Part shown: piece by piece, positions 2,586 to 37,200 of the stretch
Numbering within the stretch: the stretch's first letter is position 1
Layout: each line of letters opens with the position of its first letter
Position numbers and translations under genes: made by a program
Notes under the pieces: model-generated
Databases searched by the model: none
What the model was told of the DNA's origin: nothing
The model's input: only the letters and a program-made list of their open reading frames with translations
Source of the DNA: Tabrizicola sp.
GTDB lineage: Bacteria > Pseudomonadota > Alphaproteobacteria > Rhodobacterales > Rhodobacteraceae
Length of the DNA: 38,980 nt
Reading direction: 5' to 3'
Assembly: GCF_016792905.1 (NCBI RefSeq)
Contig: NZ_JAEULP010000067.1
Coordinates: forward strand, 1 to 38,980

Positions 2586-4043
2586 ATGAAGCGCATCATG
2601 ATTCAGGGCGCAGGCTCCAACGTCGGCAAGTCGCTTCTCGTCGCCGGGCTTTGCCGCCATTTCACCCGCCTCGGCATGACCGTGCGCCCCTTCAAGCCGC
2701 AGAACATGTCGAACAACGCCGCCGTGGCGGAGGGCGGCGAGATCGGCCGCGCGCAGGCGCTGCAGGCCCGCGCCTGCAAGGTGGCGCCCCATGTGGACAT
2801 GAACCCCGTGCTCTTGAAGCCCGAATCCGAAACCGGCGCGCAGGTGATCGTGCAGGGCAAGCGCCTGACGACCGTGAAAGCCAGAGGCTACGCCGCCCTC
2901 AAGCCGCAACTCATGGCCCCGGTCCTCGACAGCTTCCGCCGCCTTCAGTCCCAAGCCGACCTCGTGATCGTCGAGGGTGCAGGCAGCCCCGCCGAGGTGA
3001 ACCTGCGGGCAGGCGACATCGCCAACATGGGCTTCGCCCACGAGGCCTGCGTGCCGGTGATCCTGACCGGCGACATCGACCGGGGGGGCGTCATCGCGCA
3101 ACTCGTGGGCACGCAGGCGGTGCTGGACCCCGGGGATGCCGCGATGATCAGGGGCTTCCTGATCAACAAGTTCCGCGGCGACCCCCGACTTTTCGACGAC
3201 GGCTACCGCCTGATCGAACAGCGCACCGGCTGGCCCGGCCTCGGCGTCATCCCATGGTTCCCTCATGCCCACCGCCTTCCGGCGGAGGACGCCGCCGAGT
3301 TGAGCAGCGGCGGGGGCGGCACAAGGGGCAACGGCCAATTCCTGATCGCCGTCCCCCACCTGAACCGCATCGCCAATTTCGACGACCTCGACCCGCTTGC
3401 CCAGGAACCCGGCGTCACCCTGAAGATCGTCAAGCCCGGCCAACCCCTGCCGGTCGAGTCCGATCTGATCATCCTGCCGGGAAGCAAAGCCACCATCGCC
3501 GACCTCGCCCATTTCCGCGCCGAAGGCTGGGACATCGACCTCGCCGCCGCCCTCAGCCGGGGCGCACGGGTTCTGGGCCTCTGCGGCGGCTACCAGATGC
3601 TCGGGCGCGAGATCGCCGACCCTGACGGGATCGAGGGCAAGCCGGGCTCCGTCGCCGGTCTCGGCCTTCTGGACCTCACCACCGTGATGACCGCCGACAA
3701 GCGCGTGACCGAAACCGAGGCGATCCACCCCGCGTCAGGCACCCGCGTCAAGGGCTACGAAATTCACCTCGGCCGCACGGAAGGCCCCGACCGCGCCCGC
3801 CCGCTGTTCAGCGTGAACGGCCAGCCCGAAGGCGCCGTCCGCGCCGATGGCCGGGCGATGGGCAGCTACCTCCACGGCATGTTCACCGAAGACGCCTTCC
3901 GCCGCGCCTTCCTCGCAGGCCTCGGTGCAACCCCCGGCAACTTCAGCTACGACCAGTCCGTCGAGGAAACGCTCGACGCTCTGGCCGACCACCTTGCCGC
4001 GAATGTGGATTGCGAAAAGCTGCTCGCACTGGCGTCGATCTAG
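2586..4043 (+). CDS. cobQ: Cobyric acid synthase
   Basis: A 485-residue glutamine-dependent amidase that adds four amide groups to adenosylcobyrinic acid a,c-diamide in the cobalamin pathway. The N-terminal dethiobiotin-synthetase-like ATPase domain carries GAGSNVGKS (residues 8-16) and the family signature [11 protein letters not shown] at about 38. The C-terminal GATase domain has the nucleophile Cys333 in [11 protein letters not shown] and His430 in GSYLHGMF. The ATG at 2586 is preceded by AAGGGG; an upstream in-frame start at 2508 would give an atypical extension. No other cobalamin genes are in the window, so it is not in a visible cob operon. I looked for a cobalamin riboswitch in the 162-bp upstream gap and saw none. 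Confidence 0.96.
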
Positions 4044-4219
4044 GCCGACTCATCCGACACCCTCCGGCGCATACCGACTTGGTAATTCCGCCACAGGCTT
4101 AGAAATTCAGGATTCAGCATGCTTCTTCGGCAAGAACCATGCCTGTAAGATTCATGAACCATCACCCGGTGGTGTTGAGAGCATCAGCATCGGGCGCAAG
4201 AAAATCAGAGGAAACGAGC

Positions 4220-4815: not shown

Positions 4816-4847
4816 CGGGTGGGGTTCGCCCCCACCCGTTCTGGTTA
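4816..4847 (+). terminator. Terminator after barrel gene
   Basis: A 9-bp GC-rich stem, CGGGTGGGG (4816-4824) with its complement at 4830-4838, has a 5-nt loop and is followed by TTCTGGTT. It sits 14 nt after the stop codon of the barrel gene. Confidence 0.65.
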
Positions 4848-4916
4848 AGAAAGCCCGAACGCCCACAGCCAAGCCCTTGAAATCCCGCAGGATCAGACCT
4901 CTGTCCTGCGTGGACA
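4844..4916 (-). repeat. 3'-end repeat, copy 1 (after znuA)
   Basis: Read on the minus strand it begins with the degenerate 15-mer TGTCCACGCAGGACA (4902-4916) immediately after the znuA stop codon (4917-4919). It then shares GATTTCAA, a TTGG block, GGGCGTT and TTTCTTAAC with the copies at 20904-20982 and 36227-36295. The order of conserved blocks is the same in all three copies. It overlaps the tail of the terminator at 4816-4847. Confidence 0.65.
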
Positions 4917-20436: not shown

Positions 20437-20883
20437 TCACCGCGCCGCCTGCCTTAACACCCGGTCCAGCACATCCAGGAACCGGCTCCGGTCGGCCTTC
20501 GAGAACATCTTGCCGCCCCCCTGCCGGAAAGGATCGGCCGAGCGCAAATCCTGCATCAGGTCCCGCGTCGCCAGCGCCATGCCGACATTCGCCGCCGTCA
20601 GCTCCTCGCCGTTGTGCTTGACCACCCGCGCCCCCGCCGCCACGCATTTCGCGGCGAGCGGGATGTCTCCGGTGACGACGACATCCCCCGGCCCGCAGGC
20701 CTCGGCGATCCACTTGTCGGCCTCGTCCGGGCCGCTGGACACGAAGACGCTTTCCACCAGCGGGTTCTGCGAGGGCCTTATGCCCCCGTTCGACACCACC
20801 ACCATCCGCACCTTGTGCCGGGTGGCGACAGTCTCCGCCTCGCCCTTCACCGGGCAGGCATCGGCGTCGATATAAAGCGTCAT
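20437..20883 (-). CDS. yaiI: YaiI/YqxD family protein (DUF188)
   Basis: A 148-residue cytosolic protein of the DUF188 family, with a PIN-like fold. Signatures are [14 protein letters not shown] at 4-17, [16 protein letters not shown] at 29-44, and [16 protein letters not shown] at 66-81 with the acidic residues spaced as in PIN nucleases. The region KHNGEEL and the C-terminal [15 protein letters not shown] are also conserved in the family. A role in nucleic acid processing is inferred from fold only. It lies between the transaminase gene upstream and azlC downstream on the same strand. Confidence 0.92.
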
Positions 20884-20903: not shown

Positions 20904-20982
20904 GCCAGAAGTTAAGAAATCCTGAACGTCCACGCCCAACCCATTGAAATCAAACGGCCCGATTTTCTGTCCACCGTGGACA
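20904..20982 (-). repeat. 3'-end repeat, copy 2 (after dat)
   Basis: Read on the minus strand the element starts 2 nt after the dat stop codon with the 15-bp palindrome TGTCCACGGTGGACA (20968-20982) and runs to TTCTGGC at 20904. Compared with the copy at 36227 it shares the palindrome exactly, then ACAGAA, TCAAT, GGTTGG, GGACGTT, TTAAC and TTCTGGC in the same order. It has an extra 11 nt near TTAA that copy 1 also has. Confidence 0.75.
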
Positions 20983-36226: not shown

Positions 36227-36295
36227 TGTCCACGGTGGACAGAATTTTGGATCTTTTGGAATCAATAGGTTGGTTGCGGACGTTAACCTTCTGGC
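36227..36295 (+). repeat. 3'-end repeat, copy 3 (after CoA-transferase)
   Basis: The palindrome TGTCCACGGTGGACA (36227-36241) lies 3 nt after the stop codon of the CoA-transferase gene. The element continues to TTCTGGC at 36295, shares the same blocks as copy 2 and lacks an 11-nt insertion. It spans the whole 59-bp convergent gap and overlaps the stop codon of the convergent gene (36283-36285). Confidence 0.75.
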
Positions 36296-37200
36296 AAGGT
36301 TTCGACCGGCAGCGTCGTCGGTGTCCGGCTGGCGCGCCAGGCCGCCAGCAGACCCGCCACCGCGATCAGCGCCATGCCGGTGAAGCCCAGGGCATCGGGC
36401 AGGTGCCGGAACACCAGCCAGCCCAGCATGGTCGCAAAGGCGATGTGCATGTAGTTGACCGGGGCAAGGGTCGAGGCCGGGGCCTCGCGATAGGCTGACG
36501 TGAAGAGGAGATGGCCCACCGTCGCGCAGGAGGCGTAAAGGAGGATCATCAACGCATCGGCGGCGGTCGGCCAGGCCGGCACGCCAAGGGCGAGGGCCAG
36601 TCCGACCGAGATGACCGACCCCACCAGCGCCGTGTGGAACAGAAGCGCCATCGTCGTCTCGGTCCGGGTCAGGATTCGGGTCAGCAGGTGGTAGCCGGTG
36701 CCGAGGAAGGCATTCAGCAGGCAGAGCACCACGCCCCGGCTGTCCAGCCCGCTGCCCGGTCGCGCGATAAGCAGGACCCCGGCAAAGCCCAGCGTGGCGC
36801 AGACCCATCCGAGCGCGCTGACCCTTTCGCCCAGGATCGGGCCGGAGGCGAGCATCAGGAGGACGGGCGTGATGTAGATGATCGCCACCGTCTCGGCCAC
36901 CGGCATGACCCGGAGGGCAAGCAGCATGGTCACCGTCGCGAAGGCGAGGAGAAGGCCGCGCAGGATCACCAGCCCGGTGCGCTGCGTCCGCCAGACCGCG
37001 CTGCGGTGTCGCGGCCACATGGTGACAAGGACGAGGACCAGGTTGATGACATAGCGCGCCGAAAGGATCAGCGCCGCCGCGTAGAGCATGGAGAGATGCT
37101 TGCCGAGCGTGTCGCCACAGGCAAAGAGGAAGGTCGCGGCCAGAACCAGCGCGACGCCCTTCAGCGGATTGCCCGCATCACTGGTCGGAGGGATCGCCAC
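36283..37200 (-). CDS. DMT superfamily (EamA) transporter
   Basis: A 305-residue inner-membrane protein with about ten helices. The first repeat ends with IIYITPVLLMLASGPILGERVSALGWV and the second begins RGVVLCLLNAFLGTGYHLLTR. Its start is GTG (37198-37200) since no ATG fits the frame. It starts 5 nt after the stop codon of a half-length EamA gene upstream, so the two are probably translated from one message. Substrate unknown. The C-terminus overlaps a dispersed intergenic repeat. Confidence 0.87.
   Translation of the reverse strand: MAIPPTSDAGNPLKGVALVLAATFLFACGDTLGKHLSMLYAAALILSARYVINLVLVLVTMWPRHRSAVWRTQRTGLVILRGLLLAFATVTMLLALRVMPVAETVAIIYITPVLLMLASGPILGERVSALGWVCATLGFAGVLLIARPGSGLDSRGVVLCLLNAFLGTGYHLLTRILTRTETTMALLFHTALVGSVISVGLALALGVPAWPTAADALMILLYASCATVGHLLFTSAYREAPASTLAPVNYMHIAFATMLGWLVFRHLPDALGFTGMALIAVAGLLAAWRASRTPTTLPVETLPEG

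Follow-up and report, generated by a model that had tools for sequence, protein, structure and literature searches.

Here we describe a composite DNA element of about 77 bp that recurs at gene borders throughout one genus of Rhodobacteraceae, with dozens to more than 100 copies per genome. It occurs three times in the stretch of DNA that we analysed, 38,980 nt of Tabrizicola sp. (contig NZ_JAEULP010000067.1 of assembly GCF_016792905.1; hereafter the window). The element combines a dyad at its head with a match to the binding site of integration host factor (IHF) and a third half-site, and the surrounding chromosome carries a directional imprint in base composition that resets about 3.9 kb beyond the tail. 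An evenly balanced case can be made that the gene transfer agent (GTA) of the genus, which is of the type of the Rhodobacter capsulatus agent (RcGTA), uses this element as a cos-like site on the chromosome from which it starts to package DNA in one direction.

Results

The anatomy of the element is apparent from an alignment of 199 copies with exact heads, which were oriented by CA-N5-TTG (two ambiguous copies and seven with the pattern on neither side were left out). The aligned copies are sharply bounded at both ends: information begins with the first base of the head, extends about 33 bases past the TTG and is almost nil further on. Its blocks stand in the order head dyad (15-16 bp), 20-21 nt, the AT-rich IHF-type block TCAANNNNTTG, GYGGRCRTT and TTnn-N7-TTAAS. 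GYGGRCRTT repeats the half-site of the head and constitutes a third half-site; in the window copies, it starts at a distance of 41 or 42 bp, or about four helical turns, from its counterpart in the head dyad. The TTG stands 28 or 29 nt from the head in 48 of 48 tail-pattern matches, with the pattern allowed anywhere between 20 and 60 nt away (54 head rows were tried). The first 48 source-genome loci were drawn from the 137-site search in the order of its listing, which favours exact heads. The consensus core of IHF sites is WATCAANNNNTTR, and the IHF-type block matches it, which makes it a candidate IHF site: CA and TTG are each present in 100% of the 199 copies, both being part of the orienting rule, and outside this rule the T before CA is present in 91% and the third A in 95%. 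The terminal TTnn-N7-TTAAS is similar to a CtrA box. A second class of tail, seen at the aminotransferase gene dat in G401, G395, G413, G338 and other genomes (G numbers denote genomes), carries GATTTTCCGTT instead of the third half-site.

Base composition around the elements follows a sawtooth. In the 200 nt beside the head, third-position skew is +0.29 in the genes that end there (72) and -0.36 in the genes that start there (29), as opposed to -0.05 at 259 control gene ends and -0.04 at 251 control gene starts; the two opposite values represent one and the same bias on the element strand. We followed this bias in 20 kb regions around 74 elements of three genomes (G000, G175 and G338), which come from listed rather than random places and in one set of which 16 of 20 heads could be oriented and four were left out. 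Element-strand GC skew is close to 0 left of -2 kb, rises over about 2 kb to a peak at the head and falls at the element; beyond it, the skew rises again and then drops about 3.9 kb past the tail (+3.75 to +4.1 kb). This drop is the largest between +1.5 and +8.5 kb (t = 6.0, compared to a maximum of 4.4 in 2000 rotations; rotation p = 0.0005), its position is bounded at 3750-4125 by bootstrap, and the largest right-side drops of the three genomes taken separately lie at 3875, 3750 and 4000. At 4-fold sites, the skew is about 0.30 before the step and 0.11-0.15 after it, and genes of either direction show the decrease (paired difference 0.18; 63 of 74 elements; p = 6.6e-10), although some of the 74 loci may be orthologous between genomes, so that pooled p-values overstate independence. 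The head side shows no comparable drop, its largest t being 2.98 at -6.5 kb, and the underlying process thus looks one-directional. In a short-flank test of nine genomes, the step across the element was significant in eight, the exception being G338 with seven elements.

The same bias can be compared between species that do or do not carry the element at a given gene. For dat, the 21 species that have the element show a skew of 0.32 and the nine that do not 0.165 (p = 0.035); for an acetyl-CoA hydrolase/transferase gene (hereafter the CoA gene), the values are 0.31 in 12 species with it and 0.10 in six without (p = 0.005), the species having been sorted by eye and decayed copies counted as absent. 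In the element-poor genomes G243, G412, G406 and G393, dat skew lies between -0.20 and 0.03. Exact heads on four long contigs are also spaced more evenly than random (pooled coefficient of variation 0.55 versus 0.92, p = 5e-5, for exact heads on the listed contigs), whereas spacing on contig C5 of G175 is not regular (0.88, p = 0.53). Orientations along one contig are mixed, 10 being + and 6 being -.

The genus carries GTA genes. GTA_TIM is found in 29 of 32 genus genomes, with some copies having a prophage-like appearance, and the GTA small terminase subunit TerS in 28 of 32. The source genome encodes TerS, TerL, portal, capsid and gp15 in this order and hence a head-tail cluster of the RcGTA type. 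In both genomes inspected, an element is located just upstream, either of the fabF-mltG-GTA block (G000; L484 571-585, corresponding to G000:C1:8570-8584) or of the GTA genes (G175:C1:358521), and its tail points away from the cluster; packaging from the nearest element would therefore leave the GTA genes out. G404, which has TerS but no GTA_TIM match, possesses the worst-kept heads, with 7 of 7 pairs in 2 of 28.

How widely is the element distributed? At up to two mismatches, the source genome (3.79 Mb in 91 contigs) contains 137 palindrome sites, compared to five for a reversed control, so that the three copies first noticed in the window are not isolated chance-like matches; 108 sites are exact. 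An exact head with the IHF pattern occurs in three of 390 genomes across the order, all three in the genus of the window. The pattern of the tail by itself is found in 30 of 32 genus genomes; in the order-wide set it is found in five of six sampled genus members and, outside the genus, once each in 10 of 384 genomes, where its reversed control also scores once in seven. The element is restricted to the genus. Named matches, among those listed, belong to Tabrizicola, Rhodobacter sp., unclassified Rhodobacteraceae or other bacterial assemblies.

Genomes without TGTCCACNGTGGACA carry other dyads at the same spacing, namely GCGCCGCGCGCGGCGC in G155 and G171 and a TGCCCACGCGTGGGCA-type head in G407 and, less well kept, in G404. 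The head sequence hence varies between species yet stays a dyad. Of 30 species loci of dat, 21 carry the element at the 3' end of the gene, while in nine it is absent or decayed; for the end of the CoA gene, 12 of 18 loci carry it. Different heads at the same gene end imply that these places are old and that the head sequence has changed in place. G402 has decayed copies at both the dat and the CoA loci, and G243, G412 and G406 have few or no elements. A mobile element that inserts after stop codons had been considered in the preliminary description; the positions at dat and the CoA gene are shared across the genus, and sites free of the element resemble loss, rearrangement or decay.

We located 133 elements relative to genes called by a simple caller of our own. 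The head side faces the end of a co-oriented gene in 90 cases and a gene start in 40, with no call in three; co-oriented ends lie within 28 nt in 83 of the 133, and 73 heads begin 0-9 nt past the stop codon. An earlier, cruder placement test had given 103 of 170 elements versus 132 of 1700 random positions. The proposal that the element hugs stop codons in one orientation thus captures a non-random, genome-wide tendency, but as a rule it is only partly right, because 40 of 133 heads face gene starts; transcription direction is not the common factor. What the elements do have in common is a head that borders on a gene and a tail directed away from it. Among the 74 elements of the skew analysis, genes just left of the head are co-oriented in 76%, and about 70% of tail-side genes at +0.75 to +3.25 kb are oriented towards the element. 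In 3 of 34 heads at gene starts (L026, L077 and L114 are examples), the head end TGGACA, similar to a -35 box, stands 17 nt before TACACT or TATCCT. A promoter within the element is not general: a TANNNT at this distance was found for these 3 of the 34 heads at gene starts, and the 83 heads at gene ends included no such case.

Recognition at the level of DNA fits the head better than an RNA hairpin. A covariation scan of 234 elements placed all top column pairs inside the head, and in 278 elements defined by their tails, G.T pairs did not significantly exceed A.C pairs in the head (36 versus 26, one-sided p = 0.13), which led us to discard a reading as RNA structure. The 199 aligned copies display no conserved T run, though individual copies have one, and the combination of a G.U-tolerant stem with a T run that characterises intrinsic terminators was not found. 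The centre of the head is biased to purines (g or a in 146 of 153 odd heads), which keeps a role as RNA, or another role that depends on the strand, somewhat plausible. The functions initially offered for the repeat, namely a terminator module, a target of RNase or an RNA-binding protein, or an inserter after stop codons, are accordingly not favoured: G.T pairs are not significantly in excess, 40 of 133 heads face gene starts, copies occupy the same orthologous gene ends in the majority of species compared, and the skew sawtooth, which is the strongest signal associated with the element, runs through genes of both directions.

The window itself contains three copies with the block order previously reported. 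A palindrome search at up to three mismatches gave six matches, that is, three sites on both strands. Shuffled sequences gave 1.07 on average, with no count as high as six in 100 shuffles; the three copies are thus not due to chance. Their sites had been placed correctly, but the full elements extend over 4840-4916 on the minus strand (copy A), 20906-20982 on the minus strand (copy B) and 36227-36303 on the plus strand (copy C). As noted before, the heads begin 0, 2 and 3 nt past the stop codons of a ZnuA-family gene, dat and the CoA gene, respectively. The palindrome that all three were said to share is found as TGTCCACGGTGGACA in copies B and C, while copy A deviates from it by two mismatches.

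Copy A follows znuA (PF01297; 4917-5798, minus strand) with its tail towards lower coordinates, and comprises, all on the minus strand, the variant dyad TGTCCACGCAGGACA at 4902-4916, the IHF-like site TTTCAAGGGCTTG at 4870-4882, assigned by its match to the consensus, the third half-site GTGGGCGTT at 4858-4866 and a CtrA-box-like TTnn-N7-TTAA at 4845-4859. Copy B lies between dat (class IV aminotransferase, PF01063; 20985-21848, minus strand) on its head side and a DUF188/YaiI gene (20437-20883, minus strand) on its tail side. Its head TGTCCACGGTGGACA occupies 20968-20982, its putative IHF site TTTCAATGGGTTG 20937-20949, its third half-site GTGGACGTT 20925-20933 and its TTnn-N7-TTAA 20912-20926, each on the minus strand. 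Copy C follows the CoA gene (PF13336, PF02550; 34874-36223, plus strand), with the head TGTCCACGGTGGACA at 36227-36241, the IHF-like match AATCAATAGGTTG at 36260-36272 and the third half-site GCGGACGTT at 36276-36284 on the plus strand. The sole match above the gathering score in an Rfam scan of the window is a tRNA (RF00005) at 65-138, with none at the elements, and a blastn search for plasmid copies with copy B gave no match.

Discussion

Headful packaging is suggested by a one-directional process that starts from a dyad with an IHF site and advances by a unit of about 4 kb. RcGTA particles hold about 4-4.5 kb and are filled by a headful mechanism (PMC11841831). How might the element promote packaging? 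We envision that a putative dimeric DNA-binding factor recognises the head dyad and that IHF bends the DNA, which would bring the third half-site against the dyad. A similar arrangement exists at lambda cosB, in which R3 and R2 are juxtaposed by IHF for a TerS dimer (PMC4669245). The chromosome would then be opened at or near the head, and the terminase would fill successive heads of about 4 kb towards the tail side. Over evolutionary time, recombination of such fragments into surviving cells might leave a strand-composition ramp for each packaged unit, and the skew resets at the head and about 3.9 kb downstream would represent unit borders. If one fragment end and one strand were preferred at entry, a ramp would build up within the unit and be reset at each border. 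Entry of RcGTA DNA into recipients involves ComEC, ComF and ComM, and its integration DprA and RecA (PMC10883770).

The closest parallel to the order of dyad, IHF site and half-site is lambda cos, with cosN followed by cosB (R3 - IHF site I1 - R2). There, a nicking and recognition region precedes an IHF bend that is flanked by TerS half-sites, and packaging proceeds from cosN through cosB (PMC4669245). In our element, the dyad and the third half-site flank an IHF-like site, but the GTA TerS does not track the head dialects. Unlike lambda cos, the element exists in many copies per host chromosome, is about 77 rather than about 200 bp long, differs in sequence, and comes without a match to PF07471 TerS in 32 genomes. 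RcGTA provides a second parallel, given the RcGTA-type genes of the genus and a quantum of about 3.9 kb that is near the 4-4.5 kb of RcGTA. According to PMC7947584 and PMC11841831, RcGTA has no known discrete start site, and the latter describes prominent coverage peaks for DsGTA, thought to mark initiation sites. In contrast to both agents, a defined motif and a one-directional pattern are seen here. In E. coli, palindromes with an IHF site are scattered between genes, frequently at 3' ends, as bacterial interspersed mosaic elements and repetitive extragenic palindromes (BIME/REP; RIB/RIP); the element described here differs from them by its fixed oriented architecture, even spacing, species-specific dyad dialects and 4 kb skew step. 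Dialects of a repeated motif near gene ends also characterise the DNA uptake sequence of Neisseriaceae; the likeness lies in the dialects, and the present sites are long, composite and number one or two hundred rather than thousands of short ones.

A number of observations weigh against packaging as the origin of these patterns. A second step is weak (t = 3.0) and located near 7.25 kb (range about 7.0-7.3 kb), whereas equal units would give about 7.8 kb. Of the four sets of 20 kb regions, G175b taken alone does not reach significance at 3.9 kb (p = 0.16), and at the head itself the step falls short of significance in both G175b (p = 0.46) and G338 (p = 0.19). G410 and G175 have no element right after dat, yet their dat skew, 0.60 and 0.45, is highest or near-highest. 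Simple cytosine deamination was rejected as the cause of the skew, as G gains mainly at the expense of C with no clear rise in T. GTA producers die (PMC11150451), so that any imprint would have to arise in recipients. Packaging does not explain why the elements hug stop codons. Neither does the GTA machinery predict the elements: the element-poor G243, G412 and G406 keep GTA genes, and G394 has poorly kept heads although GTA_TIM is present, its TerS frame containing a stop codon. We rejected the GTA TerS as reader of the dialects in a comparison of 28 genomes, because G155 and G338 have nearly identical TerS but different heads; the TerS of element-poor G402 likewise resembles that of G401. 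RcGTA TerS has a weak affinity for DNA and no clear preference (PMC6854486, section 9), and a search for a lambda-type TerS (PF07471) as an alternative reader gave no match in the 32 genomes.

Alternatively, the element may be a directional hotspot of strand exposure or recombination that involves no packaging. If the site were cut or steered end resection, similar in effect to Chi, the head-side element strand would be exposed and the skew would reflect a mutational bias. The one-sided ramp of about 2 kb that ends exactly at the head, with the same sign in genes of both directions, is in line with this notion, and the changing dialects of the DNA dyad would go well with a protein that binds or cuts it and evolves along with it. 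However, the skew would not be predicted to drop sharply a second time, at +3.9 kb towards the tail side, and Chi is a short motif read on one strand rather than a 77 bp composite. We regard this alternative as unlikely.

Somewhat less probable is a module for gene 3' ends in the sense of a BIME or terminator, in which the head would act downstream of genes, either as an RNA hairpin or as a roadblock of protein/IHF, to terminate transcription or take up supercoils. The 73 of 133 heads that start 0-9 nt past a stop codon, T runs after some heads in other species, and the parallel with E. coli BIMEs that have IHF sites at 3' ends speak for it. Yet 40 of 133 heads face gene starts, G.T pairs are not significantly above A.C pairs, T runs are not general, the skew is independent of gene direction, and the spacing is over-regular. 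Moreover, a roadblock 0-3 nt past the stop codon would be expected to stall polymerase within the coding region.

A polar site of replication-fork pausing or termination (Ter-like), at which forks coming from the direction of the head would stall with their lagging template exposed as a single strand, would fit the sign and one-sidedness of the head-side ramp; given that it does not predict the +3.9 kb step and that orientations are mixed on one contig (10 + and 6 -), we consider it quite improbable. Slightly more improbable still is a functionless dispersed repeat, comparable to REP or miniature inverted-repeat transposable elements, that merely tolerates gene borders: many source-genome copies are indeed alike beyond the core, but the same orthologous gene ends are occupied across the genus, head dyads are kept while their sequence changes, species with few intact copies such as G402 contain decayed ones, and neither the regular spacing nor the 3.9 kb step would be expected.

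If the element is a packaging start, then the chromosome of this genus might be a substrate for GTA packaging that contains numerous cos-like starts, oriented and evenly spaced, whose dyad changes between species and whose past use is readable as composition steps of about 4 kb, an extension that we put forward a little more tentatively than the start site itself. GTAs have been described as packaging host DNA without a defined initiation site, and a literature search by title or abstract found nothing that describes this element or a defined GTA packaging motif. The element would then be the first defined packaging-initiation sequence for any gene transfer agent, and a host could shape what its GTA exports by means of dedicated chromosomal start sites. 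A corollary is that the sequence could be cloned and tested, and that GTA activity over evolutionary time would become measurable from genomes alone. Even if a GTA is not involved, a 77 bp site with a one-sided 3.9 kb step points to an unrecognised directional DNA process in Rhodobacteraceae.
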